Below, one piece after another: positions 31,101-50,255 of a stretch of 64,000 nt of DNA. Position 1 is the first letter of the stretch, and each line of letters begins with the position of its first letter. The DNA comes from Erysipelotrichales bacterium (lineage in GTDB: Bacteria > Bacillota_I > Bacilli_A > Erysipelotrichales > Erysipelotrichaceae), in contig CAJTIT010000002.1 of NCBI GenBank assembly GCA_910576345.1, forward strand, positions 1-64,000. The letters are read 5' to 3'. The translations under genes and the position numbers were made by a program. The notes under the pieces were generated by a model that had not been told where the DNA came from, did not search any database, and was given only the letters and a program-made list of their open reading frames with translations.

Positions 31101-34100
31101 CACAAGAATTTGTATATGGAGCCACAAGTGATTACTATGCGGTGGATCCATTCCATGAAGGAGGAAAACGTCCAGCTGGATTGAGCGATGCGACTATTTC
31201 GAATGAAGTGTTGAATTCCATGTTGGAATATGACAAAGACGCTGTATGGATCGTACAAGGATGGCAAAGTAACCCAACCAATGATCTTTTAAAAGGAATG
31301 GGTGATCGAAGAATTGATCATGTACTCGTGATTGATCTTATCAAATATCCGATTGCTTCTTGGACGAAATACAATAAAACAAAATATGATAGTACTACAT
31401 TAGATGCGAAAGAGTTCAATGGTACGAGCTGGGCATGGGGACTGCTTGCGAATTTTGGTGGCAATCCATCCATGCATGGACAAATGGAAGTGATGGTCAA
31501 TGATATATTGCAGGCGCAAAAGACAAGTGAACATATGGTTGGTCTTGGTATCATTTCCGAAGCGCAGTATGACAATCCGGTGATGTATGATTTGATTTTT
31601 GATCTTGCATGGGCGGATGAAAATTTCAATTTGGATACATGGCTACAAGGCTATATCAACCGCCGCTATGGTGGCACTTCTGAGAATGCACGTATGGCTT
31701 GGAATATAATGAAAAATGCAAACTATGATCATGGTGTGCGTTTTACCAATGAATTGTTTGGAATGAAATCAAAAACACCACAAGATTATGGCAAACAAAG
31801 CATTCCATATGGTGCAGAAAATCTAGAAAGTGCTTTGCGCTTATTGCTAGAAGATTTTGATAAATTTAAAGACAGCGAATGCTACTTATACGACATCACA
31901 GAAATCATGCGTCAACATGTCAGCAACTATTCTGTATTAAAATACAATGAAGTGTTGGATGCAAGAACAGGCGATCGTGTCGATGAATTCAAACAGTTAA
32001 AAGATGAATTCCTCAATGCATTTGACGTATTAAATGAAGTCGCATCCACGCAACAGGAACAACTGGGTGGAGAATGGATTGGAAAGGCAACCGATCGTGC
32101 AAGCGCATATGATGATTTTGCGACAGATTCCTTTGAAATGGGTGCCAAGGCATTGATCACTTCCTGGGGATCTCGTAGTTCGCATGGTGGCTTGAAGGAT
32201 TATGGTTGGCGCAATTATGAAGGTATCTTCCAAGATTTGAACACAAGCATTTGGAGTGAATACTTGAACCGAGTTGCCACAAATCTAGAAAATGGTGCAT
32301 CCATTTCCGCTGGAAACAAATCAAAAAATGATTATTTCCATGTGTATTGGCAATGGAACTTGTCGAAACAAAATTATACGCGTACAGCGAAAGATTCTGC
32401 GGCAGAAATCAAGTCAATCGCCGATCGTGTTTTGGATGAATGCGCCATTAGCGGTGAATTGGATCAAAATATTGGCAATATCGCAATGCCAGGATTTGCC
32501 CATGCTTCACCTGCCAATGACAATATCAATGCCGTGAATGATGGTGATGCAGATACAGTGGTAGCCATCAAAGGAGATCAAGCAGAAGTTGTTATTGACC
32601 TCATTGGAGAATTCCAATTATCGAAACTCAATATCGCATCCACAACAGAAAGCTGTGGATATCGTGTATTCATTAGTAATGATAACAGCACATGGACAAA
32701 AGTAGGTGAAAAGAAGAGTGGCAATGAGGAAGAAACAGGGATCAACTATCCTTTGGATTTCCCGATAGCACGTTATGTTAAAGTTGTGGCAGATTGTACC
32801 GATAAAGAATTGCAGTTAAAGGAAATTCGTGCGTATGGAGAACGTATCCTTCCTACATTGGATCAGTTGAACATTTTGATCGATTATGCAGAAACACTTC
32901 AAACAGACAATGCATCTCAAGATAAGTTGAAACTGTTTGAAACCGCCTTGAAAGACGCTAAGACATCCTATGGCAATGATGCGAATCCGGATGAAGCAGG
33001 TACCGTTTACTGGGCATTGTATGATGCGATCGTCGCCCTTGATCTGAAAACAATGCCGAATATCGCACTCAATAAGACGGTGACTGCCCACAATGATCCT
33101 GCTGGAAATTCAGCACGTTTGACAGATGACAGCTTGGATACGTATTGGGATGCTGGAAGATTAAGTCCTCCAGGAAAACCATATGAAGATGCGATAACAC
33201 CAGGGTGGGCGATCATTGATTTGGAACATGTGTATGAAATCGCGCAGATCCAGATCATGTTTGGAAAAGATATTTGGCATCATTATGAATTGGAAGTTAG
33301 TGAAGATAATCAAACATGGACCAAAATAGGGGAGAAAAAGACGAACACACGACCAGGTAATGAAGATGAATATGCATTTGATGATGTCAAAGCACGCTAT
33401 ATCAAACTAATCTTGACGGATGTTCAACTGGAATCTGGTGGAAAGCGAAACTCTGTGTTCGTTAAAGAATTGATTGTAAAAGGCACACGTTACGTTGTGA
33501 AAAAAGCAGAGCTTCAGAAAGTGATCCAAGAGGCAAACGCTTATGAAGAAACAATGTACACGGAAAACAGTTGGAATGCGCTACAAACATCGATAGCGAA
33601 CGCAAATCAGTTGTTGGAAAATGAAGATGCGACACAAAATGAGGTAGACGACGCCTGCGTTGCATTACAAAATGCTATCAAACAATTGGCATATAAAGCA
33701 GCGGATTATTCAGCTGTCGATGAAGCATTGAAACAAGCCAATGCGCTGCATAAAAATGACTATGTGGATTTTAGCCCTGTAGAAAAAGCAGTGACGGCAG
33801 TGATTAGAGATAAGCTCATCAATGAACAGGATATCGTAGATGGTATGGCACAGGCGATATTGGATGCAATCGCAGGTTTAAAGAAAAAAACACAGCCTGC
33901 AGATTTAGAAGCCTTAAAAGAAGCAATCGAAAAGGCAAATCAGTTGGATAAGGATCTCTATACGCAAACCAGTTGGAATGCATGCAAGCAGTCACTGGAA
34001 GCGGCAGAAGCATTGCTCAAAAAGGATGTCATATCACAAGAAGATGCAAAACAATGCACGGAAAAGCTGTTAAAGGCCATAGAGGCATTGGAATTGTACA

Positions 34101-34669
34101 ATGATGATCGTACGATACAGGAAGGCAATGTCAGTGTCAGTGGAAAATTGGATGCGGATGTTCAATTAAGCGCTGTGAGTTTGTATGAGAATGATACAGC
34201 GTTACTCGATAAACTACAGTCGCTAACAAATCAGTATGATGCAACCTACTTTAAGGATAAAGCAATCATGGATGTTTATGAAATCAAGTTGTTGAAAAAC
34301 AATCAAGTGTATTTGTTTGATGAACCACTGCTAGTGAAAATCAAACTGCGCCCAGAATGGTTTGGAAAACATCCACAAGTGATTTACATCAAAGAGGATG
34401 GAACATTTGAAGAAGTACGTTCGGTAGTTGTAGATGGATATATATGTTTTAAAGTGGAACATTTCTCCTATTATGGTATTGTAGGAGATAAGGTGAAAGA
34501 TGTGGAACAGCCAACAATAAAACCGCAGCTTCCTCATAAGGATCCTTCCATTATATCTGGTGTGAATACAGGTATCACAGATGTGTTTGGACCGTATATG
34601 ATCCTATTGATCGTTATGGGTGCCTTCATGTACTGGATGAGGAAACGATGTATTCGTACATGGAAATAA
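28115..34669 (+). CDS. Giant surface alpha-N-acetylglucosaminidase (GH89) with accessory modules
   Basis: A 2184-aa secreted enzyme. Order: signal peptide (1-30); two DNRLRE-type modules (about 30-232 and 303-495), each followed by a FIVAR-like helical segment; an F5/8-type (CBM32-like) domain (568-697); the GH89 N-terminal and catalytic domains (about 715-1430); two more F5/8-type domains (about 1452-1578 and 1648-1792); several FIVAR segments (1795-1999); the tail domain shared with the proteins at 11202 and 14065 (2002-2125); 'SGVNTG'; and a C-terminal membrane anchor. Candidate catalytic Glu residues lie in 'DPFHEGG' (about 1014) and 'IISEAQ' (about 1149), at the positions expected from NAGLU/CpGH89. 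The family removes terminal alpha-linked GlcNAc from mucin or heparan-type glycans. The SD is GAGAGGAGG. Confidence 0.88.
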   Translation: MKRILKTFLTMMMTLSTILGGIHLEAVFAQTRDGEYTVSEDAYVDSQNGNAVKSYENITKAHGAQYEGKNYKVLNTKSYPNGRQLMSVMKLTLPTKEEIAANHYDTYEFVFHVFKNADFKKGPQTYHFYYMSDVSWSESALTWNNKPTSIANPSTEQVLFDFTIAADKEYEFLSDAEKTIRINVTDKIKNLIDNDVKEITIFTAGQDRKDTSLMIHSKESADGSYAPKLIASNNDENTLRLQELVDICATIGAEHYTSESYQVLQTQLGVARDALTSGDANQIAQAYDALVYAKAGLSAQFAIQADAFVRSDRAGTVYNFENITKDHGAQYVGKNYKVINSKRYANNNEIIGLMKFQVPSAEWMEKNDLDSYFLEFNIFKNPGFNNGDQTYHFYYTNDVAWDETTVNWNNRPTSIQHDGEHVLCDFTIKQGDEYETKTDSQKHIKLDISEKIKEIADAGLSEITVFVVADKGMDTSLMLHSKESGDGSLGAFISAVNLNYTQKLTQLIAECKALDESAYATEGMDALKAVLSDAEALGSDASGLDRHILYNRLFAAKEALVSIADPSDPANIAYQKPTRTNLSKTQSKNVTDGNLNTYWQAQFYPSYVDIDLMDTYDLTGMKIFTPTGKKVNYTIYGSNDGTTYDRLYQKRDLSPMDESGDAIHFDTTQSYRIVRVYMEYTQDENSAFLSEVRVYGTPTQTNTDALKEGTLEEILNVTSFEDSAYAGAISAQETIDNVYGIIERTIGAQYKDWFSFELVNDNDDQDWYEISDANGKIHIKGNEGLSLTTGLNYYYKNYLNVHISEQTKQVSMPQSIVKVNKTIRKETPYQVRYAFNYCTLSYTFAFFGQEEWQRENDWLALNGVNVVLDLAGQEATWIKFLMNFGYSYDDAKDWLSGPAYYAWQFMDNMEVFGGPVPDGYVKDRLELARSTQRWKRSLGMQTVLQGYAGMVPTNFNEYQKDVQTIAQGAWNGFTRPSMIATDSATYDEYARLFYQAQEFVYGATSDYYAVDPFHEGGKRPAGLSDATISNEVLNSMLEYDKDAVWIVQGWQSNPTNDLLKGMGDRRIDHVLVIDLIKYPIASWTKYNKTKYDSTTLDAKEFNGTSWAWGLLANFGGNPSMHGQMEVMVNDILQAQKTSEHMVGLGIISEAQYDNPVMYDLIFDLAWADENFNLDTWLQGYINRRYGGTSENARMAWNIMKNANYDHGVRFTNELFGMKSKTPQDYGKQSIPYGAENLESALRLLLEDFDKFKDSECYLYDITEIMRQHVSNYSVLKYNEVLDARTGDRVDEFKQLKDEFLNAFDVLNEVASTQQEQLGGEWIGKATDRASAYDDFATDSFEMGAKALITSWGSRSSHGGLKDYGWRNYEGIFQDLNTSIWSEYLNRVATNLENGASISAGNKSKNDYFHVYWQWNLSKQNYTRTAKDSAAEIKSIADRVLDECAISGELDQNIGNIAMPGFAHASPANDNINAVNDGDADTVVAIKGDQAEVVIDLIGEFQLSKLNIASTTESCGYRVFISNDNSTWTKVGEKKSGNEEETGINYPLDFPIARYVKVVADCTDKELQLKEIRAYGERILPTLDQLNILIDYAETLQTDNASQDKLKLFETALKDAKTSYGNDANPDEAGTVYWALYDAIVALDLKTMPNIALNKTVTAHNDPAGNSARLTDDSLDTYWDAGRLSPPGKPYEDAITPGWAIIDLEHVYEIAQIQIMFGKDIWHHYELEVSEDNQTWTKIGEKKTNTRPGNEDEYAFDDVKARYIKLILTDVQLESGGKRNSVFVKELIVKGTRYVVKKAELQKVIQEANAYEETMYTENSWNALQTSIANANQLLENEDATQNEVDDACVALQNAIKQLAYKAADYSAVDEALKQANALHKNDYVDFSPVEKAVTAVIRDKLINEQDIVDGMAQAILDAIAGLKKKTQPADLEALKEAIEKANQLDKDLYTQTSWNACKQSLEAAEALLKKDVISQEDAKQCTEKLLKAIEALELYNDDRTIQEGNVSVSGKLDADVQLSAVSLYENDTALLDKLQSLTNQYDATYFKDKAIMDVYEIKLLKNNQVYLFDEPLLVKIKLRPEWFGKHPQVIYIKEDGTFEEVRSVVVDGYICFKVEHFSYYGIVGDKVKDVEQPTIKPQLPHKDPSIISGVNTGITDVFGPYMILLIVMGAFMYWMRKRCIRTWK

Positions 34670-36880: not shown

Positions 36881-37354
36881 ATGGCGGATACAGAAAAGGC
36901 TAAGCAAATCGCCCATTTGTTTTTTATCACTAACAAAAGCATGAAAGCGGGAAATCTTCGTAATTTTCATGATCATCATATGCGTAAACGCGATGTATGG
37001 ATGTTGGGAACAATTTTGGGATACATCAAGGAACATCATGTAGAAATGATGAAGATGAGTGAAATCTCTACGTATTTCCATATAACACCGGCGGCTGTAT
37101 CACAAATGATCAAAGAGTATGAAAGAAAAGGATGGGTAGAGCGGATTATTTTGGATCAAGACAGACGCAGTGTGTACTTAAAAGTAACAGACAGCGGCGA
37201 GAAAATGTTAAAACAGAACGAAGAAGCAGCGATGAAAGATCTTATAGATTTTCTGGAATTTATCGGTGATGAAGACAGCGATGCCTTGATTCGCATATTG
37301 GAAAAGGCTGCATCATTTCACTGGAAGAAACAAGAAAGGAGTTTGGATCAATGA
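36881..37354 (+). CDS. MarR-family transcriptional regulator
   Basis: A 157-aa winged-helix regulator. The helix-turn-helix lies near residues 60-85 ('MSEISTYFHITPAAVSQMI', key residues only) and the wing at 'ILDQDRRSVYLKVT' (near 91). MarR dimers usually repress an adjacent exporter and release DNA on binding a drug or phenolic ligand. Here it overlaps the first ABC exporter gene by 4 bp (ATGA), and the palindrome at 36835-36861 is the obvious autoregulatory operator. The SD is GAGAGATGG (weak). Confidence 0.92.
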   Translation: MADTEKAKQIAHLFFITNKSMKAGNLRNFHDHHMRKRDVWMLGTILGYIKEHHVEMMKMSEISTYFHITPAAVSQMIKEYERKGWVERIILDQDRRSVYLKVTDSGEKMLKQNEEAAMKDLIDFLEFIGDEDSDALIRILEKAASFHWKKQERSLDQ

Positions 37355-39606
37355 CAAAATTGATGATACGATATTTAAAACCATTTACTTGGTCCGTTGT
37401 GGCAATTATTGCATTGTTATTTGTACAGGCGCAGACAGAATTGGCTTTGCCAGATTATATGTCAGAAATTGTAAATAACGGTATTCAAACCGGTGGTATA
37501 ACCAGTTCATTACCAGAAGCGATTCGTGCAAGCGAATACGAAAAAGTCAAGATTTTTATGGATGAAGATGGAATCACGAGGATGGATGATGCTTATCAGT
37601 TGGTAACAAAAGAGAATGCGACAATGGAGCAAGTGGAATCCTATCCTGCATTGTCGAATGAAGATGTGTATTTGTTACAGGCAGAAGATACAGACGCATT
37701 GGCACAAGATATGGCGATTCCACAGCTTTTGGTAATGAGTTTGGATGGTATCGCAAGTGGAGAGACATCTACACTGGATGAAAACAGTGAAGAAGTGAAG
37801 AAAATTCAGAAAATGATGGCACAGCTTCCTAAAGGCATGGATATATTTGATGGAATGCGTATGATGCCAAAAACAGAAATCCAAAAGATGAAAGACGACA
37901 TGGGAAATCAGCTGCGCTCCATGGGAGATTCTACACTGAATACCGCCGCAACGGCATTTGTAAAAGCAGAGTACCAAGCGATTGGAATGGATACGGATGC
38001 GATTCAAACCAATTATATATTGGAAAGCGGCTTGAAAATGCTGGGAATGTCTTTATTAAGCGCAATATGCGCAATATTTGTCGGACTACTCGCAAGTCGC
38101 TTATCAGCCGGCATTGGTTTGAGAATGCGTGGCGATGTATTTAAGAAAGTGGAAAGTTTTACAAGTGCAGAATTCAATCGGTTTTCCACAGCTTCTTTGA
38201 TTACCCGCAATACGAATGATATTCAACAAGTACAGATGGTCATTGTAATGTTCATTCGCATCGTTTTGTATGCGCCAATCATCGGTATCGGAGCCTTGTT
38301 AAAGGTGCTGGATTCCAATGTGTCCATGACATGGATCATCGCATTGGTTCTGACGGTAATTTTAGGTTTGATTTTTACCATCTTTATTGTGGTTATGCCG
38401 AAGTTTAAAGTTATTCAGAAACTGATTGACCGCTTAAATCTTGTGATGCGTGAATTCTTGGATGGTATGTCGGTCATTCGTGCGTTCAATACGCAGAAGT
38501 ACGAAGAAAAAAAATTCGACAATGCCAATCAGGAAATCACGAAAACCAACTTGTTTGTCAACCGCGCAATGGCAGCGATGATGCCATGTATGATGTTTGT
38601 TATGAATGGCGTTGCTTTGTTAATTATCTGGGTTGGTGGAAAACAGATGGATGTCGGATCGATGCAGATTGGCGATATCATGGCTTTCATTCAATATACG
38701 ATGCAGATCATTATGGCATTCTTAATGATTTCGATGGTTGCAATTATGATTCCGCGTGCTGCGGTTGCCGGTGTGCGTGTCAAAGAAGTGCTGGATTGTG
38801 AAGTTTCAATACAGGATCCATCAAAACCAAAGGCATTTGATGAAACCAAAAAAGGCTATGTTGTATTTGACCATGTTTCCTTTGCCTATCCCGGCGCAGA
38901 AGAAGATGTTTTACATGATATTTCCTTTACGGCTAAACCGGGACAAACCACTGCCTTTATCGGAAGTACCGGCAGTGGTAAATCCACATTGATTAATTTG
39001 GTTCCGCGCTTCTATGATGTGAGCGATGGTCATGTATCTGTCGATGGCGTGGATGTGCGCGATGTTTCCCAAAAGGATCTGCGTGAGCGTATTGGTTACG
39101 TTCCACAAAAAGGCGTGCTGTTCTCCGGTACGATTGCGAGTAATCTTCGCTATGCGAAAGAAGATGCAAGTGATGAGGAATTGAAAGAGGCCAGCCGTAT
39201 TGCACAAGCGTTGGAATTTATCGAAACAAAACCAGAACAATATGAAACAGCGATTTCTCAAGGTGGTACGAATGTATCCGGTGGTCAAAAACAACGCTTG
39301 TCGATTGCCAGAGCTTTGGTAAAGCAGCCGGAAATCTTTATCTTTGACGATTCTTTCAGCGCATTGGACTTCAAAACAGATGCAAAATTACGTAAAGAAC
39401 TCAATCAGTTATGCGAAAAAACAAAAGCTACCGTGCTTGTCGTTGCACAGCGTATTTCTTCCATCATGCATGCGGATCAGATCATTGTATTGGATCAAGG
39501 ACATGTAAAAGGAATCGGTACCCATGAGGAATTAATGAAATCATGTGTTGTTTATCAGGAAATCGCATATTCACAGCTATCAAAGGAGGAATTAGAACAT
39601 GAGTAG
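37351..39606 (+). CDS. Heterodimeric ABC exporter, subunit A (with large extracellular insertion)
   Basis: A 751-aa half-transporter: membrane domain then ATPase domain. It is about 150-170 aa longer than usual because some 180 hydrophilic, Met/Asp/Glu-rich residues (about 45-225) sit between the first and second TM helices, outside the cell. The NBD has Walker A 'GSTGSGKST', signature 'VSGGQKQR' and Walker B 'IFIFDDSFSALD', where Asp replaces the catalytic Glu. This is the mark of the degenerate site in heterodimers such as LmrCD, BmrCD and TM287/288. It overlaps its partner gene by 8 bp. Probably multidrug or peptide/lipid efflux, controlled by the MarR repressor. Confidence 0.9.
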   Translation: MTKLMIRYLKPFTWSVVAIIALLFVQAQTELALPDYMSEIVNNGIQTGGITSSLPEAIRASEYEKVKIFMDEDGITRMDDAYQLVTKENATMEQVESYPALSNEDVYLLQAEDTDALAQDMAIPQLLVMSLDGIASGETSTLDENSEEVKKIQKMMAQLPKGMDIFDGMRMMPKTEIQKMKDDMGNQLRSMGDSTLNTAATAFVKAEYQAIGMDTDAIQTNYILESGLKMLGMSLLSAICAIFVGLLASRLSAGIGLRMRGDVFKKVESFTSAEFNRFSTASLITRNTNDIQQVQMVIVMFIRIVLYAPIIGIGALLKVLDSNVSMTWIIALVLTVILGLIFTIFIVVMPKFKVIQKLIDRLNLVMREFLDGMSVIRAFNTQKYEEKKFDNANQEITKTNLFVNRAMAAMMPCMMFVMNGVALLIIWVGGKQMDVGSMQIGDIMAFIQYTMQIIMAFLMISMVAIMIPRAAVAGVRVKEVLDCEVSIQDPSKPKAFDETKKGYVVFDHVSFAYPGAEEDVLHDISFTAKPGQTTAFIGSTGSGKSTLINLVPRFYDVSDGHVSVDGVDVRDVSQKDLRERIGYVPQKGVLFSGTIASNLRYAKEDASDEELKEASRIAQALEFIETKPEQYETAISQGGTNVSGGQKQRLSIARALVKQPEIFIFDDSFSALDFKTDAKLRKELNQLCEKTKATVLVVAQRISSIMHADQIIVLDQGHVKGIGTHEELMKSCVVYQEIAYSQLSKEELEHE

Positions 39607-41452
39607 ATCAAATTCACGTCCTCCAAAACGTATGGGACATGGCCCAATGATGGGCGCCACAGAAAAAGCGAAGAATTTCAAAGGAACGATGCGGCAACTT
39701 ATTGCTTATATGCGTCCTTATTATGTAAAAATCAGTTTGGCGATGTTGTTTGCGGTCGCAGGTACGATTTTTATGATTGTAGGTCCAAAGATTTTAGGAA
39801 AAGCAACTACGGCGTTGGCACAGGGATTTATGGAAAAAGTAACCGGTGTCGGCGGTATTGATTTTGATTATATTCTATCCATTATTCTGTTTTTGCTTGG
39901 ATTGTATGTGTTAAGCGGCCTTTTCTCTTTTGTGCAGCAGTATGTGATGAGCGGTGTTACCCAGCGTACTGCTTATGATTTGCGGAAAAAAATTGCGAAA
40001 AAAATTGATCGTATGCCATTTAAATACTTCGATACCAATTCACATGGCGATGTATTATCCAGGGTAACGAATGATATTGATACGTTGGCGCAGTCGCTAA
40101 ACCAAAGCTTGAATACGTTGATCACCAGTATTGTAAATATCATTGGTTTTACCGTCATGATGTTATCGATTAGCTGGCAGATGACACTGGTCGCATTCGT
40201 TACGGTGCCATTATCCGTTGTATTTGTATCAACGATTGTAAAAAAATCACAGAAATATTTTGTTTCTCAACAAAAGTTTTTGGGAGAAGTCAATGGACAT
40301 ATTGAAGAAATGTATGGCGGGCATACCGTGATGAAGGCGTTCAATGGTGAAGAACGCAGTGTGGAAGTGTTTGAAAAACACAATCATAAACTATATCATG
40401 TTGGATGGAAATCACAGTTTCTGTCTGGATTGATGCAGCCAATCATTGGATTTGTTGGCAATATTGGTTATGTATTTGTATGTATTTTAGGTGGATGGCT
40501 GGCCATACAAGGAACGATTGAAATTGGCGACATACAAGCATTCATTCAATATGTAAGAAACTTTAATCAGCCGATTACGCAGATGGCACAGGTTATGAAT
40601 ATGCTACAGTCCACAGCTGCCGCTGCGGAGCGCGTGTTTGAATTCTTACAAGAAGAGGAAGAATTGCCGGAAACCGAAAATCCGGTTGAAATCTACGATG
40701 AAAATGGAAACTGTCGCATTGAAGGACAAGTTACGTTTGAGAATGTGCGTTTTGGTTATGATCCAAACAAGATAATCATCCATGATTTTTCCATGTATAT
40801 CAAGCCGGGCAAAAAGATAGCGATCGTTGGTCCAACCGGTGCAGGTAAAACCACAATTGTGAAATTGCTGATGCGCTTTTATGAATTGAACAGCGGTACC
40901 ATTTATATCGATGGCATCAAAACAACGGAAATGCGCCGTGCAGATCTTCGTTCGCTGTTTGGCATGGTATTACAAGATGCTTGGCTGTTTCATGGCTCTA
41001 TCATCGATAATCTTCGTTATGGTAAGCTGGATGCTACGGATGAAGAAGTTATGAAGGCTGCGGATGCAGCGTATGTAGATCATTTTATCCGTACACTGGA
41101 TCATGGCTATCAAACGGAAATCAATGAGGATTCCAATAATATATCGCAAGGACAAAAACAGCTGTTAACGATTGCTAGAGCCTTTTTGGCAGATCCGAAA
41201 ATCTTGATTTTGGATGAAGCGACTTCTTCTGTGGATACGCGTACAGAAGTGTTGATTCAAAAGGGCATGCAGAAATTGATGGAAAATCGTACCAGCTTTG
41301 TCATAGCGCATCGTCTTTCTACGATACGTGATGCGGATTTGATTTTGGTTATGAAAGATGGCGATATTGTAGAGGCAGGTAACCACGATGAATTGATGCA
41401 GGAACAAGGCTTTTATACCCAACTGTACAATTCGCAGTTTGAAGAAGCATAA
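39599..41452 (+). CDS. Heterodimeric ABC exporter, subunit B (catalytic)
   Basis: A 617-aa half-transporter of standard length. The NBD has Walker A 'GPTGAGKTT', Walker B 'ILILDEATSSVD' with the normal catalytic Glu, and a weakened signature 'ISQGQKQ'. The weak signature here and the missing Glu in subunit A belong to the same composite site, so the pair fits the asymmetric exporter model with one active ATP site. The N-terminus is rich in Arg, Pro and Met before TM1. Translation is coupled to subunit A by an 8-bp overlap. Confidence 0.93.
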   Translation: MSRSNSRPPKRMGHGPMMGATEKAKNFKGTMRQLIAYMRPYYVKISLAMLFAVAGTIFMIVGPKILGKATTALAQGFMEKVTGVGGIDFDYILSIILFLLGLYVLSGLFSFVQQYVMSGVTQRTAYDLRKKIAKKIDRMPFKYFDTNSHGDVLSRVTNDIDTLAQSLNQSLNTLITSIVNIIGFTVMMLSISWQMTLVAFVTVPLSVVFVSTIVKKSQKYFVSQQKFLGEVNGHIEEMYGGHTVMKAFNGEERSVEVFEKHNHKLYHVGWKSQFLSGLMQPIIGFVGNIGYVFVCILGGWLAIQGTIEIGDIQAFIQYVRNFNQPITQMAQVMNMLQSTAAAAERVFEFLQEEEELPETENPVEIYDENGNCRIEGQVTFENVRFGYDPNKIIIHDFSMYIKPGKKIAIVGPTGAGKTTIVKLLMRFYELNSGTIYIDGIKTTEMRRADLRSLFGMVLQDAWLFHGSIIDNLRYGKLDATDEEVMKAADAAYVDHFIRTLDHGYQTEINEDSNNISQGQKQLLTIARAFLADPKILILDEATSSVDTRTEVLIQKGMQKLMENRTSFVIAHRLSTIRDADLILVMKDGDIVEAGNHDELMQEQGFYTQLYNSQFEEA

Positions 41453-41506
41453 ATTCATAAGACATATGTGTACTCAAACAGTTTTCTGTGTTAGTAGAGG
41501 TATAAT

Positions 41507-41543
41507 AGCTGGGGAGCGGTGTAGTAGCGCTCCTCAGCTTTTC
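41507..41543 (+). terminator. Terminator of the MarR-ABC operon
   Basis: AGCTGGGGAGCG pairs with CGCTCCTCAGCT (12 bp, one G-T pair), followed by TTTT. A TATAAT-like string directly precedes it. Confidence 0.8.
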
Positions 41544-42067
41544 GTATGTTGATACATATTGTTTCAAAAGCTGAAATAGTTTGTTGAGTAAGAATGTGTT
41601 ATAGTCTGTAGTTTTGTTCATTTTTTATCAAATGGTTTTCAAGCGATTGCTAAAGCTTATAACAATGCTTATACATTGAAATGGATGAGATAAAGCTACT
41701 AAGGCATTTGAGCATCTTTTTTGAATTTGCAAATCAATTTTCTTATTTGATTCAGTTCTTAGTAAGATATTGTTTGTCCGGAAAATATATAGTGTGGTTC
41801 ATAAAACATTTCTATAAGTTATCACTTGTTAAATACTGTGCGCTATCAAAGACAGCGAGTGCTTAACCTGTTGGTTCAATTTCATAAGCCGGGGCTATTA
41901 AGAATGAATTATTAGGTGATGACAAGCTTATTGCCTTGGCTGAGAGAAACTATAATATGACAGTAAAAAAGCTGGAAACAAGCGACATTTTCGTAACTCT
42001 ACCGTTGGTAGGTGTTTGTTTTATCTGCCCATAGTATAATAATAAGCGAAAGAGAGGAACTTGAAAT
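41544..42067. other. Intergenic stretch with decayed coding sequence before the HTH-ATPase gene
   Basis: About 520 bp with no intact gene. From 41888 to 42034 one frame is open and reads like protein, but it lacks a start codon. TATAAT at 42035-42040 is the likely -10 of the next gene. The rest shows nothing recognisable. Confidence 0.4.
41888..42034 (+). pseudogene. Possible 3' remnant of a lost gene
   Basis: A 48-codon frame without a usable start reads 'ELLGDDKLIALAERNYN' and 'VKKLETSDIF' before a stop. Its amino-acid composition looks protein-like (helix-forming, charged). I do not recognise the family. It could be the tail of a regulator or mobile-element gene deleted when the neighbouring segment was inserted. 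Confidence 0.3.
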
Positions 42068-43144
42068 ATGGATCAAAAGAAGATTGGTAGTTTTATCGCC
42101 GCCCGCAGAAAAGACAAAGCCATGACCCAAAGTCAACTTGCTGAAAAATTGGGGATTACAGACAAAGCAATCTCAAAATGGGAAACAGGAAAATCTATGC
42201 CTGATTTATCCCTGTTTAATCCTCTGTGTAAGTTACTTCATATCACTTTGAACGAGTTACTTTTAGGAGAATTTATATCGGACAAAGACTTAAAAGAGAA
42301 ATCAAATCAAGTATTGTATGATGTGGTGAAAAACTGGCTAGGCAAAGATCAGTGGACAATCAAAACAGATACTCATAATCCAACGGTTCTAAAGTTAAGG
42401 AATATTAGAAAAGTATATGAAACTGAAAGCACTTCAACTGTGGCAGTCAAAGATGTTAGTTTTGAAATAACAAAAGGAAGTTTTGTTGGTATCATGGGTG
42501 CGTCTGGTTCAGGAAAAACAACTTTGCTTAATATGATTGCAACCATTGACAGCGCCACCAGTGGACAGATAGAAATTGATGGACAAAATATCATGGACCT
42601 ATCAGAAAATGATTTAGCAACTTTTCGACGAGAGCATTTAGGGTTTGTATTTCAGGAATACAATTTAATAGATACTTTAACGATCTATGAAAATATTGCG
42701 TTGGCATTGACAATGAAGCAAATACCAAAAGAGTCGGTAAAACAAAAAATCATTGATTGGGCAGAAAGATTAGATATTTCTGATATTTTAAATAAGTTTC
42801 CATATGAAATTTCAGGTGGACAACGGCAAAGATGTGCTTGTGTGAGAGCGATTATTACAAGCCCTAGCCTTATTCTTGCAGACGAGCCGACCGGAGCTTT
42901 GGACAGCCACTCCGCAAGACAGTTATTGGAAACCTTTGTTATGTTCTCTCAAAAATATTCCGCTACAATTTTGATGGTTACACATGATGCCTTATCTGCC
43001 TGCTATTGCGACAGGATTTTGTTCATGCAAGACGGTGAGTTTAAGGTTGCATTGGAACGGGGACATGAGAACAAGCAAGAGTTTTTTACTAGAATTTTGG
43101 ACACCCTAGTCAAAATAACAGGAGGGAGTCGTTATGTATCTTAA
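42068..43144 (+). CDS. XRE helix-turn-helix fused to a BceA/MacB-type ABC ATPase
   Basis: A 358-aa fusion. Residues about 1-65 are an XRE/Cro HTH ('MTQSQLAEKLGITDKAISKWE', key residues Q-x-x-L-A-x-x-x-G-[IV]-[ST]-x-x-x-[IV]-[ST]-x-W-E). After a linker, residues about 105-335 are an ABC ATPase with Walker A 'GASGSGKTT', signature 'ISGGQRQR', Walker B 'LILADEPTGALD' and switch 'VTHD'. The ATPase type is that of BceA/MacB antimicrobial-peptide exporters. The same chain could therefore bind DNA and drive the permease encoded next (10-bp overlap). The SD is AGAGAGGAA. The surrounding non-coding debris suggests horizontal acquisition. Confidence 0.88.
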   Translation: MDQKKIGSFIAARRKDKAMTQSQLAEKLGITDKAISKWETGKSMPDLSLFNPLCKLLHITLNELLLGEFISDKDLKEKSNQVLYDVVKNWLGKDQWTIKTDTHNPTVLKLRNIRKVYETESTSTVAVKDVSFEITKGSFVGIMGASGSGKTTLLNMIATIDSATSGQIEIDGQNIMDLSENDLATFRREHLGFVFQEYNLIDTLTIYENIALALTMKQIPKESVKQKIIDWAERLDISDILNKFPYEISGGQRQRCACVRAIITSPSLILADEPTGALDSHSARQLLETFVMFSQKYSATILMVTHDALSACYCDRILFMQDGEFKVALERGHENKQEFFTRILDTLVKITGGSRYVS

Positions 43145-44465
43145 ATTAGCGTTACGAAATGCAAAGCGCTCAATACTTGATTATATCCTTTATATATTAT
43201 CAATGGTTCTGCTTACATCTATCATCTTTTTTTCCACCAGTATCGCAAATTGGGGAAACATGCAAGCTGGCTTTCAAACAATGGCCCTACCTCTGTTGAT
43301 TGTGGTAATCATGGGCATGTTAGCAAACTATATCAATGTTTTTATCGTCAAGCAAAGAGCAAAAGAGTTTGCTATTTATACGTTGTTAGGAATGAGAAAA
43401 GATATACTGTCTTGGGTGTTTCTAAGCGAATTACTAGTCATAGGATCGATATGTTTCATCTTTGGTGTAGCTTTAGGTGTTGCTGTATTTTGCGCTTTTT
43501 GCTATACGATATTGCAAGGGGTTGGGCATTTATTCATGTTCCAAATAATTTTGCAAAGCATTTTACAGACGTTTGCTTACTTTTGTTGTGTTGAACTATT
43601 GTCCATATTTTTTATGAAACAAAAAATATATAAATTGCAGATTGCAGAGCTTATGAGTGAAAAGCGACGCAATCAACCGCTTGGAGTACATAAGAAAACC
43701 TTTTGGGGCTGTATATTTATTATCAATTTTTTCATCTATGTAAGCTTATTGTTTGCAATTTCTTTTATGCCGGATGAGATAATGTCGATCTCCATCTCAT
43801 TCATTTCGTTACCGATGCTACTTTGCGTCTTTTCATTTTATAAGTGGTTATATGCTTTTATTGCCTTTTTACGGCTGTCACAAGTAAATACACTGTACCA
43901 AGGTAATCGACTGTACCAAATCGCTGAAATTACTGCAGGATCAAAGTCAAGCGCAATTATGAACACGATCTTTTGTGTTTGTTTGATTTTTTCAGCATTT
44001 TCCTTTACATGTGGAATGCTACTGATTAACACGCATGTTCATGTCTTTGAACAAGCCAAACAACAATGGATGGGATTTTTGCAAATTTGTATTTGTATTC
44101 TATTCATGATTATTTATTTTTCCACCGTATCGTTGATGCAGATTGTTCAATCAAAAAAAGAGGCTCCAAATGTCCGTATATTGTTTCAAATGGGAAAAAC
44201 TCGATCCCAACTAAAATCTTTGCTTTATTATCAGACACTTATAAGGCTGTTTCTTCCAACGCTGATGGCCTTTGTAGTGCTTTTACCGGCAACGCCCTTT
44301 ATTAACTATAAACTAAATTTGATATTTTTTGCTTCTTCGTCTTTGCATAATCTAACAGCGAAGGCTATCGGAGTTTTTATAATTTGCTTTTTCATTCTAT
44401 ATGTATGCTATTTTTGTATAATATGTATGATAAACATACGCTATATCCGATATCATATGAAATAA
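43134..44465 (+). CDS. FtsX/BceB-like ABC permease lacking the extracellular sensor domain
   Basis: A 443-aa permease with about ten predicted TM helices and FtsX-like regions. BceB proteins are normally about 620-670 aa with a roughly 200-residue extracellular domain between TM7 and TM8. Here TM7 ('TIFCVCLIFSAFSF') and TM8 ('FLQICICILFMIIYF') are joined by only about 20 residues. It partners the HTH-ATPase encoded upstream, with overlapping genes. BceAB-type systems remove peptide antibiotics from lipid II-cycle targets; without the external domain the target and sensing mode are open. No BceRS two-component genes are adjacent. Confidence 0.85.
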   Translation: MYLKLALRNAKRSILDYILYILSMVLLTSIIFFSTSIANWGNMQAGFQTMALPLLIVVIMGMLANYINVFIVKQRAKEFAIYTLLGMRKDILSWVFLSELLVIGSICFIFGVALGVAVFCAFCYTILQGVGHLFMFQIILQSILQTFAYFCCVELLSIFFMKQKIYKLQIAELMSEKRRNQPLGVHKKTFWGCIFIINFFIYVSLLFAISFMPDEIMSISISFISLPMLLCVFSFYKWLYAFIAFLRLSQVNTLYQGNRLYQIAEITAGSKSSAIMNTIFCVCLIFSAFSFTCGMLLINTHVHVFEQAKQQWMGFLQICICILFMIIYFSTVSLMQIVQSKKEAPNVRILFQMGKTRSQLKSLLYYQTLIRLFLPTLMAFVVLLPATPFINYKLNLIFFASSSLHNLTAKAIGVFIICFFILYVCYFCIICMINIRYIRYHMK

Positions 44466-44703
44466 TCATTTTAAAATGTTGCCGCATGAGGATAAGTTCA
44501 AAAGCATAAAAAAATAATGGGTGTCAAAGTTATAATAAGATTTATTTCGAGTGTGTCCGCCACAACAAGACATTTGACTCCTTGGATGCGGATAATGGAA
44601 ATGTATTTCGTTAGCCTACCCAAGATTCCCCCGGATGAGTTTTTAACACTCAAGGGTAACAGGAGTATTTCATATGTTTTTTGCTTAAATTGGATAATTC
44701 TGG
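44466..44703. other. Intergenic stretch with no recognised content
   Basis: About 240 bp between the permease and the feo promoter. Short open frames occur on both strands but none has an SD or recognisable product. Confidence 0.35.
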
Positions 44704-44732
44704 TTGACAAATAAGTTAGCTAGTGCTAATAT
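44704..44732 (+). promoter_or_regulatory. feo operon promoter
   Basis: TTGACA (44704-44709), 17-bp spacer, TAATAT (44727-44732). The first operator-like palindrome overlaps the -10. Confidence 0.85.
44716..44729 (+). promoter_or_regulatory. Metal-regulator operator, copy 1
   Basis: TTAGC-TAGT-GCTAA, a perfect 5-bp inverted repeat overlapping the -10 of the feo promoter. It resembles sites of DtxR/MntR-family metal repressors (inference). Confidence 0.65.
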
Positions 44733-44741
44733 ATGAAAGGA

Positions 44742-44757
44742 GTTAGTATATGCTAAC
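44742..44757 (+). promoter_or_regulatory. Metal-regulator operator, copy 2
   Basis: GTTAG-TATATG-CTAAC. Its centre is 27 bp after that of copy 1. It spans an ATG at 44750 that has an SD of its own, but 44777 is the better start for feoA. Confidence 0.6.
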
Positions 44758-44776
44758 AAGAAAGGAGATAAATACG

Positions 44777-45007
44777 ATGACTTTAGCCATGGCAGAGATG
44801 CATACTTGTTTTACCATTTACAAGATCAATGGAAAAGACGCAATGCGATCACGACTTGCCAACCTTGGATTTGTAGAAGGTGTTGATATTTGGGTTGTGA
44901 ATGAGAATAACTCGCATTTGATTGTTCATGTCAAGGATACACGAATCGCATTAGACCAATCGCTGGCAAATCGCATCGTGGTTCAAAGAAAGGAGAAAGA
45001 TACATGA
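44777..45007 (+). CDS. feoA: FeoA-family protein, first copy
   Basis: A 76-aa SH3-like FeoA domain protein that modulates the ferrous-iron transporter FeoB. It shows the family pattern 'RLANLGFVEGVDI' (residues about 26-38) and a C-terminal 'RIALDQSLANRIVV' strand. ATG 44777 with AAAGGAGAT upstream is preferred over ATG 44750, which lies inside an operator palindrome. It overlaps the second feoA by 4 bp. Confidence 0.88.
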   Translation: MTLAMAEMHTCFTIYKINGKDAMRSRLANLGFVEGVDIWVVNENNSHLIVHVKDTRIALDQSLANRIVVQRKEKDT

Positions 45008-45222
45008 CATTAAATGAAGTAGAGATTGGTAAAACAGTTACCATTACGAAAATTCAGGCAGCTTCTGCCGTAAAAAAGAAATTAATGGATATGGGATTAA
45101 CCAAACATACGCCGTTACGTATTCAAAAGATAGCGCCGCTGGGAGATCCCATCCATATCCATGTAAGAGGTTATGATTTATCGATTCGTAAACAAGATGC
45201 GGCATGTATAGAAGTAGTGTAA
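45004..45222 (+). CDS. feoA: FeoA-family protein, second copy
   Basis: A 72-aa FeoA with clearer family motifs than the first copy: 'KLMDMGLTKHTPLRI' (about 24-38), 'APLGDPIHIHVRGYDLSIR' key residues G-D-P-x-x-[IV]-x-x-x-G-[YF]-x-[LI]-[SA]-[LI]-R. Tandem feoA genes before feoB are common in Firmicutes. Translation is coupled to the first copy (ATGA). Confidence 0.92.
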   Translation: MTLNEVEIGKTVTITKIQAASAVKKKLMDMGLTKHTPLRIQKIAPLGDPIHIHVRGYDLSIRKQDAACIEVV

Positions 45223-45240
45223 TTTTTTTTGTAAATTGAG

Positions 45241-45254
45241 TTAGCATAAGCTAA
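45241..45254 (+). promoter_or_regulatory. Metal-regulator operator, copy 3 (internal, before feoB)
   Basis: TTAGC-ATAA-GCTAA in the 52-bp gap between the second feoA and feoB. Same arms as copy 1. Confidence 0.6.
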
Positions 45255-45274
45255 TAAAAAGAAAGGATGATAGG

Positions 45275-47428
45275 ATGAAAATAGCTTTGGCAGGTAATCC
45301 CAATTGTGGAAAAACAACGTTGTTTAATGCACTTACGGGAAGTAACCAGCATGTAGGAAACTGGCCAGGTGTAACGGTCGAAAAAAAAGAAGGCAAATTA
45401 AAAGGAAATCATGAAATTACCGTAGTGGATCTACCAGGTATTTATTCTTTATCTCCATATTCCTTGGATGAGCGCGTAGCTAGAAATTATCTGATGCAAA
45501 AGCGTCCTGATTTGATTGTCAATTTGGTAGATGCGTCTAATTTAGAGCGCAACTTGTATTTAACATCACAGCTGACGGAAATGGGAATTCCGGTTGTAAT
45601 CGCTTTGAATATGATGGATGTGGTGCAGGCAAACGGTGCAGTGATTCATATTGATGTGTTATCAAAACAACTCGGATGTCCGCTTGTCGCAATTTCCGCA
45701 TTGAAAAATGAAGGAATCGATCAACTGATTCATCAGATTCAGATGACGTTAACAGAGAAAAAAACATGTGTCGGTAGCTGGAAATATGAAAGTGAAATCG
45801 AATCGGCGCTGATGCAGATTCAAAATCTTTTGAAAGATCAAGTGGCTGAGGAAACACGTTTCTGGTATGCGTTGAAATGTTTGGAACAAGATGAAAGCGT
45901 ATTGTCTTCACTTTCTTTGGATGCGAAGAAAGTGAATGAAATTAATCATATACGAAAAGAATTGGAAAAAACATATGACGATGATGTAGAAAGCATTATG
46001 TCCAATGCTCGTTATGAAATGATCAGTGGATGGATGAAAACCACATATAAAAAAGGGAAACAGAAAATGAGCAGAAGCGATCGCATAGATCGTATTGTGA
46101 CCAATCGATGGCTGGCACTTCCTATCTTTGCGCTTGTTATGATTCTTGTTTATTATGTTTCTGTCACAACGGTGGGAGCTTTTGTGACAGATTGGACGAA
46201 TGATGTTTTATTCGGCGAAATCATTCCACCGGTTATTGAAGATTTTCTGAATACGATTGGCTGTGCAGAATGGATGTCTTCTTTGATTTTGGATGGTATT
46301 GTGGGCGGTGTCGGTGCCGTACTTGGTTTTGTGCCGCAAATGTTGGTGCTGTTCTTGTTTTTGGCTTTGTTGGAAGATATTGGCTATATGTCAAGAATCG
46401 CATTTATTTTGGATCGTGTATTTAGAAAATTCGGATTGAGCGGAAAATCATTCATACCAATGTTGATTGGAACAGGGTGTGGTGTTCCCGGTATTATGGC
46501 AAGCCGCACGATTGAGAATGAATATGATCGCCGTATGACGATTATGACCACGACTTTTATTCCTTGTAGCGCCAAACTGCCAATTATTGCGTTGATTGCC
46601 GGTGCGCTGTTTCAAGGCGCATGGTGGGTAAGCCCGCTATCTTATTTTATTGGTGTATTCGCCATCATTATCTCTGGCATCATTTTGAAAAAAACAAGTT
46701 TGTTTATGGGAGATCCATCGCCATTCATTATGGAACTTCCTCCTTATCATATGCCAAAAGCAGGCAATATTCTTAGAAGCGTGTGGGAGCGTGGATTCAG
46801 TTTTATTCGTAAGGCCGGAACTATTATCCTCTTGTCTGCGATTGTTATTTGGTTCTTATCGCGGTTTGGTATTGTGGATGGGGCATTTGTGATGTTGGAA
46901 GAGGAGGCGTTGTCACAAAGTTTTCTGGCAGTGGTCGGATCTTGGATTGCGCCATTGTTTGCGCCTTTGGGATGGGGATTTTGGGAAGGTGGCGTCGCTG
47001 CCATTACAGGTCTTGTCGCAAAGGAAAATGTGGTCACAACGTTTGGCATTTTGTTTGGGTTTGCGGATGTCGCAGAAGATGGCGCTGAAATCTGGGGCGT
47101 ATTATCTGCGTCATTCACAAGCGCAGCCGCATTCTCATTCCTTGTCTTCAATTTATTGTGCGCACCTTGCTTTGCGGCGATTGGCGCTATAAAAAGAGAG
47201 ATGAATCATACAAAATGGACATTATTTGCGATCACATATCAATGCGTTTTTGCTTATGCAATTTCCTTTATGATTTATCAGTTCTGGATATGCATTGAGA
47301 CAGGCACATTTGGTGTATTTACGATACTGGCAGTTCTTGTATTCCTGTTATTCCTATATGGATTGTTTCGTAAACCAAGCGGTGTTTCTAGGAAAGGAAA
47401 AGTCATATGGCAACCTTCTTCCTGTTGA
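45275..47428 (+). CDS. feoB: Ferrous iron transporter FeoB
   Basis: A 717-aa Fe2+ importer. The N-terminal G domain has G1 'GNPNCGKTT', G3 'DLPG' and G4 'NMMD' near residue 112. A helical insertion follows, then the membrane domain with the two 'gate' regions, each containing a conserved Cys ('GTGCGVPGIM' and 'FIPCSAKLPI'). The SD is AAAGGATGA. The three TTAGC-type palindromes upstream suggest repression by a metal-sensing DtxR/MntR-like regulator. Confidence 0.97.
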   Translation: MKIALAGNPNCGKTTLFNALTGSNQHVGNWPGVTVEKKEGKLKGNHEITVVDLPGIYSLSPYSLDERVARNYLMQKRPDLIVNLVDASNLERNLYLTSQLTEMGIPVVIALNMMDVVQANGAVIHIDVLSKQLGCPLVAISALKNEGIDQLIHQIQMTLTEKKTCVGSWKYESEIESALMQIQNLLKDQVAEETRFWYALKCLEQDESVLSSLSLDAKKVNEINHIRKELEKTYDDDVESIMSNARYEMISGWMKTTYKKGKQKMSRSDRIDRIVTNRWLALPIFALVMILVYYVSVTTVGAFVTDWTNDVLFGEIIPPVIEDFLNTIGCAEWMSSLILDGIVGGVGAVLGFVPQMLVLFLFLALLEDIGYMSRIAFILDRVFRKFGLSGKSFIPMLIGTGCGVPGIMASRTIENEYDRRMTIMTTTFIPCSAKLPIIALIAGALFQGAWWVSPLSYFIGVFAIIISGIILKKTSLFMGDPSPFIMELPPYHMPKAGNILRSVWERGFSFIRKAGTIILLSAIVIWFLSRFGIVDGAFVMLEEEALSQSFLAVVGSWIAPLFAPLGWGFWEGGVAAITGLVAKENVVTTFGILFGFADVAEDGAEIWGVLSASFTSAAAFSFLVFNLLCAPCFAAIGAIKREMNHTKWTLFAITYQCVFAYAISFMIYQFWICIETGTFGVFTILAVLVFLLFLYGLFRKPSGVSRKGKVIWQPSSC

Positions 47429-47568
47429 TCATTCTTATTGGAATTTTGTATCTTGCTATTCATTCGCTTTTGAAACAGAAAAATAGCTGTGGCGGCGCTT
47501 GTACATCATGTCATGCTTGTCACAAAGGCAGTGATCTTTATCAGGCTTATCATCATGATCATTCTTAA
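47407..47568 (+). CDS. FeoB-associated Cys-rich membrane protein
   Basis: A 53-aa protein: one N-terminal TM helix (residues about 3-22), a short basic stretch, then 'SCGGACTSCHACH' with four Cys (28, 32, 35, 38) and a His-rich end. This is the pattern of the small FeoB-associated Cys-rich family, found beside feoB in Firmicutes and possibly involved in iron handling. It overlaps the end of feoB by 22 bp in another frame. Confidence 0.88.
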   Translation: MATFFLLIILIGILYLAIHSLLKQKNSCGGACTSCHACHKGSDLYQAYHHDHS

Positions 47569-47572
47569 ATGT

Positions 47573-47616
47573 AAAGCGGCAGTACGATTGACAGATTGTG
47601 CTGCTGCTTTGCTTTA
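47573..47616 (+). terminator. Terminator of the feo operon
   Basis: AAAGCGGCAG (47573-47582) pairs with CTGCTGCTTT (47601-47610). The T tail is short. Confidence 0.55.
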
Positions 47617-47800
47617 TCTAGAAATCTTCTGAAACGTCTGTAGAAATGAAACACCATTTGCATGAAAGTCGTCGGTTTTATAAAGTCGTCAACATTGATA
47701 AAAATATACAGTAGCTGATGGTCAAAGGTATATAAATGATGTATAATCATATTTATAAAAATCTCAAAGTTGATGAAAATATAAAATGGAGGGATTTCAG

Positions 47801-49051
47801 ATGGAGATTAAAAGAGATCGTTATTTAAACCAATTGATTTCAAAAAGGCACAATTCACTGATCAAAATTATCACCGGATCAAGAAAAACCGGAAAATCAT
47901 ACCTTTTGTTTCATCTATATAAACAGTATTTATTAGAAGACGGTGTGGAATCTTCACATATTATTGAAATTGCATTGGATGATAAAAAAAATAAAGATAA
48001 AAGAGATCCCGATCAATGTATTGACTATGTCTATGATCAAATGAAGGATGAAGATATGTATTATCTTTTTATTGATGAAATACAATTCTTGCAAGAATTT
48101 GAAGATGTAATGAGTACTTTTTTACATATGAAGCATTTAGATGTATATATAACAGGGAGTCAAATGTTTTTATCATCCGATATTATTACAGAATTTATAG
48201 AAAGCGGAGATGAAATACATGTATATCCGCTTAGCTTTTACGAATTTTTTCAATTTCATGATGGCTGCACATGGGATGACGCATATACCGCGTTTTGTTT
48301 ATATGGGGGATTTCCATATGTTTCTTTATTAGAAAAAGACGAAGATAAAGAGATTTACTTGAAACGGTTGTTTTCACAGACATATATGAAAAATGTTTTA
48401 GAAAGAAATAAGATAAAGGATGGCATACAGTTAGAAACTTTGATAGATGTGATAGCTTCATCGATCGGATTGCTAATAAATCCTAGAAGACTATCAAATA
48501 CATTCAAAAGTATAGCGAATTTAAAAATTAGCGAGCCAACGATTAAACAATATCTACAGTATTTAGAAGAGGCATCTTTGGTGGAAAAAGTAATGCGTTA
48601 TGACATAAAAGCAAAAAGATATATCCGTACGCCTTATAAATATTACTTTTCAGATTTGGGCTTAAGAAATGCACGATTGAACTTTTGTCTGAAAGAAGAA
48701 ACGCATATTATGGAAAATATCATTTTTAATGAATTGCGATGTCGCGGATACAGTGTGGATGTTGGCGTTTGTGAATTGCTGGAAAAGAAAGACGAAAGTT
48801 ATACAAGAAAGCAAACAGAAGTGAATTTTGTGGCAAACAGAGACAGTAAACGATATTATATACAGGCAGTTTATGCGCTGCACGCTGAAGCAATAAAAGC
48901 GCAAGAAGAATGCTCTTTGTTTCAAATCGATGATCATTTCAAAAAGATCATTGTAGTAAAGGATAATGTTCCCGTTACAAGAGATAACAACGGTATCACG
49001 ATCATAGGATTAAAAGATTTTTTATTGGATCAAAATAGTCTGGATTTATGA
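47801..49051 (+). CDS. AAA ATPase with DUF4143 domain
   Basis: A 416-aa protein. The N-terminal AAA_14-like ATPase has Walker A 'GSRKTGKS' (near 26) and Walker B 'YYLFIDEIQ' (near 86), with sensor-like 'YITGSQ'. The C-terminal DUF4143 has a winged-helix part and a restriction-nuclease-like fold region ('FSDLGLRNARL', 'TEVNFVANRD'). The family is very common in gut bacteria, often as single accessory genes, and its function is unknown. ATG 47801 with GGAGGG is preferred over ATG 47786. It converges with the leu operon. Confidence 0.85.
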   Translation: MEIKRDRYLNQLISKRHNSLIKIITGSRKTGKSYLLFHLYKQYLLEDGVESSHIIEIALDDKKNKDKRDPDQCIDYVYDQMKDEDMYYLFIDEIQFLQEFEDVMSTFLHMKHLDVYITGSQMFLSSDIITEFIESGDEIHVYPLSFYEFFQFHDGCTWDDAYTAFCLYGGFPYVSLLEKDEDKEIYLKRLFSQTYMKNVLERNKIKDGIQLETLIDVIASSIGLLINPRRLSNTFKSIANLKISEPTIKQYLQYLEEASLVEKVMRYDIKAKRYIRTPYKYYFSDLGLRNARLNFCLKEETHIMENIIFNELRCRGYSVDVGVCELLEKKDESYTRKQTEVNFVANRDSKRYYIQAVYALHAEAIKAQEECSLFQIDDHFKKIIVVKDNVPVTRDNNGITIIGLKDFLLDQNSLDL

Positions 49052-49156
49052 TAAGATTTTTGAAAAAATGATATGTTTGATGTAGAGTTATGGAGCGTTT
49101 GTTTGTTATGTTGATGCGCTATATATGATATAGTTAATGACGTTAATTGAAAACAT

Positions 49157-49183
49157 AAAAAGTTAGGCGATGCCTAACTTTTT
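49157..49183. terminator. Bidirectional terminator between the AAA ATPase gene and the leu operon
   Basis: AAAAGTTAGGC and GCCTAACTTTT flank a 3-nt loop, with A-run on one side and T-run on the other, so it can stop transcription from both directions. Confidence 0.85.
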
Positions 49184-50255
49184 ACTTCATGTTTTTAATG
49201 ATTTGGTCGCCCATTTCTGAACAGCTTAATTGTTTCATGCCTTCTTCCATAATATCGATACAACGATATCCTTGTGACAGCGTTTCATGAACTGCCGATA
49301 CGATCGCATCGCTTTCTTTTGATAAATCAAAGCTGTATTTTAACATCATTGCCGCAGCCAATATGGTGCCGATTGGATTGGCGATGTTTTTGCCGGCGAT
49401 GTCCGGCGCAGAGCCGTGAATGGGTTCATACATGCCAACGCTGCTTTCTCCTAAAGAAGCACTTGGTATCAAGCCAATGGATCCAGTGATCATACTGGCT
49501 TCATCACTTAGAATATCGCCAAACATATTTTCGGTTACGACAACATCGAATTGTGATGGGTCTTTGACAATCTGCATGGCACAATTATCTACCAACATAT
49601 CACTAACTTCCACATCCGGATATTCACTTGCTACTTCATGGACGATTTTACGCCATAATCGGGAAGTATCCAAAACATTCGCCTTGTCCACAGAAATCAC
49701 ACGGGATTTGCGCTTTCTTGCGGTTTCAAATGCGGTGTGTGCAATGCGGCGTATCTCATGTTCACGATACATCATTTGATCGCATGCGACCAGTTCGCCA
49801 TTTTCTTCTATCGTTGTTTTTTCGCCGAAATAAACGCCGCTAATGAGTTCACGTACGACCATGAAGTCAATGCCGCGATCCACGATATCTTTACGCAAAG
49901 GTGAAGTGTGCGCAAGCTGTGGCAAAATCGTTGCCGGACGAAGGTTTGCGTATAATCCCATACCTTTACGAATGCCCAATAATGCTTTCTCTGGGCGGAT
50001 AGAAGGATCGACCTGATCCCACTTTGGTCCTCCCACAGCGCCAAGCAGTACACTGTCGGAGTTGACACAGGCATCTAAAGCTTCTTCTGTTAAAGATGTT
50101 CCATAGGCATCAATGGCACAGCCACCTGCCAGAATTTCTTTGTAGATCCATGTATGATCGTATTGTTCAGCGATCGCATCCAAAACTTTCATGGCTTCTG
50201 TTACGATTTCTGGTCCAATGCCATCTCCTTTGATAATGGTAATATGTTTTTCCAT
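49182..50255 (-). CDS. leuB: 3-isopropylmalate dehydrogenase
   Basis: A 357-aa NAD-dependent enzyme that oxidises and decarboxylates 3-isopropylmalate to 2-ketoisocaproate, the third step of leucine synthesis. It shows 'GDGIGPEI' near residue 9, 'GAVGGPKWD' near 73, and the metal/substrate motif 'NMFGDILSDE' near 240. Its start lies 3 bp after leuD. The order leuA-leuC-leuD-leuB matches many Firmicutes operons. Confidence 0.97.
   Translation of the reverse strand: MEKHITIIKGDGIGPEIVTEAMKVLDAIAEQYDHTWIYKEILAGGCAIDAYGTSLTEEALDACVNSDSVLLGAVGGPKWDQVDPSIRPEKALLGIRKGMGLYANLRPATILPQLAHTSPLRKDIVDRGIDFMVVRELISGVYFGEKTTIEENGELVACDQMMYREHEIRRIAHTAFETARKRKSRVISVDKANVLDTSRLWRKIVHEVASEYPDVEVSDMLVDNCAMQIVKDPSQFDVVVTENMFGDILSDEASMITGSIGLIPSASLGESSVGMYEPIHGSAPDIAGKNIANPIGTILAAAMMLKYSFDLSKESDAIVSAVHETLSQGYRCIDIMEEGMKQLSCSEMGDQIIKNMK

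Follow-up and report, generated by a model that had tools for sequence, protein, structure and literature searches.

The HTH-ABC fusion and its permease

Within the window (the whole stretch of DNA analyzed, 64,000 nucleotides), two overlapping ORFs lie on the forward (+) strand. The first encodes an HTH-ABC fusion of 358 aa, an XRE HTH joined to a BceA-type ATPase (42068..43144), and the second encodes a BceB-type permease of 443 aa with ten TM helices and no extracellular domain (ECD), as judged by its ORF, Pfam match, and fold (43134..44465); the two reading frames share 11 bp. This confirmed the sequence-only reading, which had described an HTH and an ATPase in one chain overlapping a permease. 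Upstream of the fusion, on the same strand, are a probable ribosome binding site (gaaagagagg, 42048..42057) and the −10 box TATAAT of promoter P1 (42035..42040), whose −35 position is taken by the right arm of a candidate operator, AACTCTACC-GTT-GGTAGGTGTTTGTTTT (41995..42022), with the core palindrome CTACCGTTGGTAG (41999–42011). Further 5′, the sequence contains a promoter-like element, P2 (TTATTG-N17-TATAAT, 41928..41956), which is confined to some sub-lineages. All these features fall within a transferable unit (41916..44489, +), at whose ends blastn homology to the unit of loci L046 and L047 begins and stops; the genes outside are unrelated. In the window, the genes 3′ of the permease are FeoA/FeoB, and a separately encoded ECD downstream was therefore ruled out. 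Two very large ORFs were observed 5′ of the module, at 14065–21789 (2574 aa) and 28115–34669 (2184 aa).

The Pfam search assigned fusion residues 10–64 to HTH_3 (1.1e-12, above the cut-off) and residues 127–275 to ABC_tran (8.2e-34). The chain was divided into an XRE HTH (residues ~3–66), a helix (72–91), a linker (~92–105), and the BceA-type ATPase (106–350), and the AlphaFold2 model showed a confident chain of HTH, helix, and ATPase (pLDDT 87.5). In the profile search against solved sequences, the ATPase matched BceA best (3.5e-93), followed by PsdA; of the earlier label "BceA/MacB-type," the BceA part held and the MacB part did not, as the MacB match was far weaker. The catalytic motifs are all intact in the sequence, and in 28 fusions, the Walker A/B, signature, Q loop, and H loop motifs were conserved, with the core ATPase motif residues invariant. 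TM helices in one chain with the HTH, as in BcrR, were not found in the fusion, which was modeled as HTH, helix, linker, and soluble ABC ATPase; its membrane partner is the separate permease. PADLOC returned generic HTH or ATPase similarities, and membership in a defense system was rejected on this basis. Elsewhere in the same genome, locus L138 (contig C32, 1497–2315) encodes a 272-aa XRE regulator whose C-terminal part is hydrophobic (TM-like), whereas the fusion has the ABC ATPase there. The first 85 residues of this regulator are 55% identical to the HTH and following helix of the fusion, and regulators of this type are the likely source family of the domain. A relative of L138 was also observed just 5′ of the module in L166.

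FtsX was the only Pfam match of the permease (4.4e-9), and its closest solved sequences were BceB (4.3e-15) and also PsdB. The AlphaFold2 model of the permease (pLDDT 78.6) contains ten long helices and was superimposed on BceB (7tch_A) with a Z of 30.6 and 423/443 residues aligned. An ECD of 200–250 residues between TM7 and TM8 is a hallmark of the BceAB family (PMC12484072). In the model, the gap between these helices, the site of the BceB external domain, consists of residues 299–306 only, in agreement with the earlier claim of ten TM helices and a missing extracellular domain of ~200 residues, and the TM7–TM8 loop was short in 30/30 aligned permeases. The ECD is thus dispensable in a conserved lineage. 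After the short loop, where the external domain would sit, lies a QxWMGFLQ motif (permease residues 310–317, window 44061–44084) that is near-invariant across most of the family and is possibly a functional replacement of the external domain or a ligand contact.

In sequence and fold, the nearest solved relatives of the module are the BceA-type ATPase and ten-TM BceB-type permease of BceAB-type transporters with BceRS, such as BceAB-RS of Bacillus subtilis, PsdAB, and SaNsrFP. BceAB-type systems have the 200–250-residue ECD and most, although not all, of their operons carry BceRS, whereas the module has neither; conversely, the HTH on the ATPase, a palindrome of its own, and the mobile cassette distinguish the module from them. 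No BceRS-like kinase or regulator was found in window 37001–50000, consistent with the sequence-only reading, and a hidden BceRS nearby was rejected. In the operon, a BceRS pair was present in 0/34 module loci (the divergent OmpR-type pair of L124 is unrelated, and the pairs of L046 and L051 are distant). The HTH-less BceA genes adjoined ECD-bearing BceB genes, with BceRS also there in 6/7 loci examined, and five close Lachnospiraceae operons with HTH-less BceA contained a response regulator, a histidine kinase, and a BceB of 665–743 residues. Of the two BceAB copies in the genome of the window, one has a kinase, a regulator, and a 667-residue BceB, and the other has a 668-residue BceB and no adjacent kinase pair. 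The fusion, ECD loss, operator, and BceRS absence co-occurred, with the exception of L070 and L073, in which the ECD is lost, yet both the HTH and the palindrome are missing.

Distribution and mobility of the cassette

Scanning 84,980 species genomes yielded 28 full-length relatives, mainly from Lachnospiraceae and including Holdemania, Anaerocolumna, Blautia, and an Enterococcus. A complete fusion was present in 24 of the 28, and the remaining four were L054 (ended by the contig), the HTH-less pair L070 and L073, and L060, in which the HTH is lost. The search of 397 Lachnospiraceae genomes gave nine full-length fusions, eight of them new, and with this strict threshold kept, a 392-genome sample across the phylum of the window gave no fusion besides that of the window. 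In total, 33 complete fusions were collected, window included, mainly from Lachnospiraceae. The pairing that the sequence-only reading took for a module held across this family: all 33 adjoin an ECD-less permease of ~435–450 residues, with an 11-bp overlap in nearly all loci, and fusions scattered without paired permeases were not seen. The Enterococcus permease is frameshifted. With 33 complete homologues sharing the architecture, a chance fusion or frameshift artefact was rejected. Among 194 relatives, the short permease was found in just two others, both from one other genus of the family and both also carrying the fusion, and the six congeners lacked it.

The unit measures ~2.6 kb, and its homology to the nearest relatives begins ~150 bp 5′ of the fusion and stops soon after the permease. 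L046 and L048 share 2,688 bp at 94% with no similarity around it, and flanking genes differed among nearly all loci, the exceptions with common flanks being Holdemania and a few close pairs. In some relatives, a terminator-like hairpin closes the unit; the copy in the window stops earlier. In the trees of both proteins, the window clustered among sequences from Lachnospiraceae and apart from Holdemania, a member of its own family, and its unit was therefore probably acquired horizontally. As judged from these comparisons, the two-gene cassette is autonomous and travels between gut bacteria. The candidate operator, the autonomous mobile cassette, and the probable horizontal origin all go beyond the sequence-only reading.

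No clean empty site was obtained in the congeners, which retain feoA-feoA-feoB with different genes 5′ of them, and inspection by eye of the cassette ends in three pairs revealed no terminal repeats or target duplications. The annotated phage and plasmid collections contained no match to at least 80% of the fusion and, in both, nothing beyond distant BceB-like permeases, and carriage by phage or plasmid was rejected. In L094 (IMGVR_UViG_3300035424_000194, 11055–13349), a prophage-like element encoding a 478-aa serine recombinase lies directly against the HTH-ABC gene, which is severed directly after Walker B (ADEPTGA), suggesting that the attachment site of the element lies within a conserved transporter ATPase gene. 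In L129 (1–760), the operator is intact, but of the fusion only the first ~35 codons are left, the remainder being replaced by other DNA.

The palindrome upstream of the fusion

The palindrome AACTCTACC-N3-GGTAGGTGTTCATTTT was present 5′ of all 33 complete fusions and four truncated copies. In most loci, it lies 12–13 bp 5′ of the −10 box, and its usual distance from the start codon is 69–92 bp. The copy in L072 is degraded with an intact core, and in L049, both innermost positions have changed jointly (CTACT-N3-AGTAG). The core has a single occurrence in the 2.83 Mb genome of the window (G000), the genome that also encodes the L138 regulator. With one mismatch allowed, the 20-mer was found in 22/26 module genomes, once in 21 and twice in one, but in neither of the HTH-less genomes, and its reversed control gave two matches. 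A homology-blind palindrome scan of the 397 Lachnospiraceae genomes returned seven exact matches, all of them 5′ of an HTH-ABC gene or, once, its remnant, and the sole match in 2.9 million viral contigs lay 5′ of a fusion that a prophage-like element interrupts. Fusions that were missed by the palindrome pattern and found via protein similarity also had the site, with 1–4 mismatches.

At the level of sequence, there was strong comparative support for a dedicated palindrome of the kind that an XRE regulator would bind. The promoter of its own module is very probably the target of the HTH, via this dedicated candidate operator, and the earlier proposal of a DNA-binding HTH serving its own promoter was supported by a dedicated palindrome that accompanies all complete fusions at about one per genome. 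P1 has the consensus TATAAT without a good −35, the right operator arm being there instead. TTGxxx-N17-TATAAT at the P2 position was found in L046, L048, L053, L049, and L051 and was not universal. Nine loci carry a second full-length site 18–20 bp upstream (approximately four helical turns center to center), which in some loci overlaps a −10-like hexamer (TATACT or TACTAT) belonging to an upstream promoter.

Proposed autoregulation and alternative explanations

The best overall explanation, which we regard as fairly likely, is a BceAB-derived mobile cassette whose ATPase subunit doubles as the transcription factor for the operon. The only DNA-binding domain of the unit and a dedicated palindrome travel together into different hosts, which is best read as self-regulation, and the ATPase is most likely its own transcription factor. 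A dimer of the fusion would bind the palindrome, which occupies the −35 position of the promoter of the fusion, and would repress this promoter until the transporter is needed. DNA binding by the fusion is very likely, and its effect is likely to be repression rather than activation, since the site overlies the −35 position and L060, whose HTH is deleted, retains intact reading frames; activation could still occur because the −35 is weak. In L060 (431–1207), a single metagenome-assembled locus, exactly the HTH and linker are lost in frame with the first six codons kept (MDQKKI joined to VLRI), and the operator and the intact ABC and permease ORFs are retained. The HTH loss may be recent, and the locus offers a natural test of HTH function. 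It is somewhat likely that the transporter handles a cell-envelope-active peptide or lipid.

BceA and BceB assemble at 2:1, and ATP drives closure of the NBDs (PMC10314905). Because BceAB has two ATPases per permease, the assembled transporter would carry two HTH domains, fitting the two-fold operator, and DNA binding might then change when ATP closes the ATPase pair or when the ATPases assemble with the permease. Such gating by nucleotide or assembly state, which the 2:1 stoichiometry alone makes plausible, is proposed tentatively. More doubtful is the idea that the two HTHs of one assembled transporter sense the transport cycle and relay it directly to the two-fold operator, which would make the 2.6-kb cassette a one-component flux sensor. 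Contact with DNA would demand that membrane-bound ATPases reach the DNA or that an unassembled soluble pool is the regulatory form, and assembly-dependent titration is the main alternative to direct coupling of the promoter to the transport cycle.

The standard example of flux sensing, in which a kinase reads the work of the transporter, is provided by Bce modules, and with five chains and phospho-steps in between, their coupling is difficult to take apart. In the module, which has no kinase, regulator, or external domain, the sole possible link is one linker from ATPase to HTH plus a defined 28-bp site, and the question of whether transporter activity directly sets transcription can thus be addressed with a single protein, a single DNA, and a reporter. 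In MalK–MalT, a transport ATPase feeds back on the transcription of its own system, as proposed for the fusion, but MalK is without an HTH and acts on a separate regulator protein. BcrR-BcrAB, the bacitracin transporter system of Enterococcus faecalis, likewise has a one-component regulator without an obvious extracellular domain driving a transporter operon; however, BcrR is a separate transmembrane regulator, whereas in the module the ATPase itself carries the HTH, and BcrAB is from another family of transporters. No earlier description of HTH-ABC fusions was found in a literature search of limited scope. If the proposed self-regulation holds, a self-regulating transporter cassette is spreading among gut Firmicutes.

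The HTH could merely set the expression level without sensing. Under such plain autorepression or dosage control, free, unassembled HTH-ABC would repress its operon so that transporter levels stay low and in stoichiometric balance with the permease, and the ATPase cycle would sense no signal. This would suit a mobile cassette arriving in new hosts, and an autonomous cassette with its own operator in unrelated hosts, an ATPase translated first with the permease overlapping, and the lack of a sensor domain or kinase are all consistent with it. We nevertheless consider it rather unlikely, as it leaves unexplained both the joining of the HTH to an ATPase whose catalytic motifs are fully conserved, instead of separate encoding, and the fact that the missing part is the kinase-based circuit.

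Less likely again is an activator that recruits RNA polymerase at the poor −35, with positive feedback as in BceRS or BcrR, whose circuits are activating. The consensus TATAAT without a good −35, the right operator arm fixed 12–13 bp before the −10, and the second upstream site in nine loci fit this role; however, L060 without the HTH still has intact ABC and permease ORFs, and a second site over the −10-like TATACT or TACTAT in some loci suits repression.

The pattern scan scored 41998–42012 as terminator-like (a stem-loop and then a T-rich stretch), and some lineages have a P2-like promoter upstream, as expected if the palindrome were an RNA hairpin (an attenuator or terminator-like leader) transcribed from an upstream promoter and the HTH acted elsewhere or not at all. 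We consider this very improbable: the stem positions are essentially invariant without covariation, the would-be unpaired positions are equally invariant, and the leader had no match in Rfam, which together favor a DNA operator over an RNA leader. Moreover, the −10 box follows the palindrome at near-fixed spacing, P2 is lineage specific, and the site is missing in the HTH-less L070 and L073. Least probable of all is a vestigial or structural HTH appended to an ordinary BceAB-like transporter, for although L070 and L073 are HTH-less and L060 is a secondary loss, the core recognition-helix residues (K33, A34, S36, K37, W38, and E39) are invariant in 28/28 diverse fusions, and the HTH and palindrome track together.

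In L059, the palindrome lies 196 bp upstream with an insertion in between. Repeated copies of TTGACACAGAAGGACATTGTGTCAA (L059 3770–3890) are inserted there between the operator and the start codon and are possibly a new promoter or operator.
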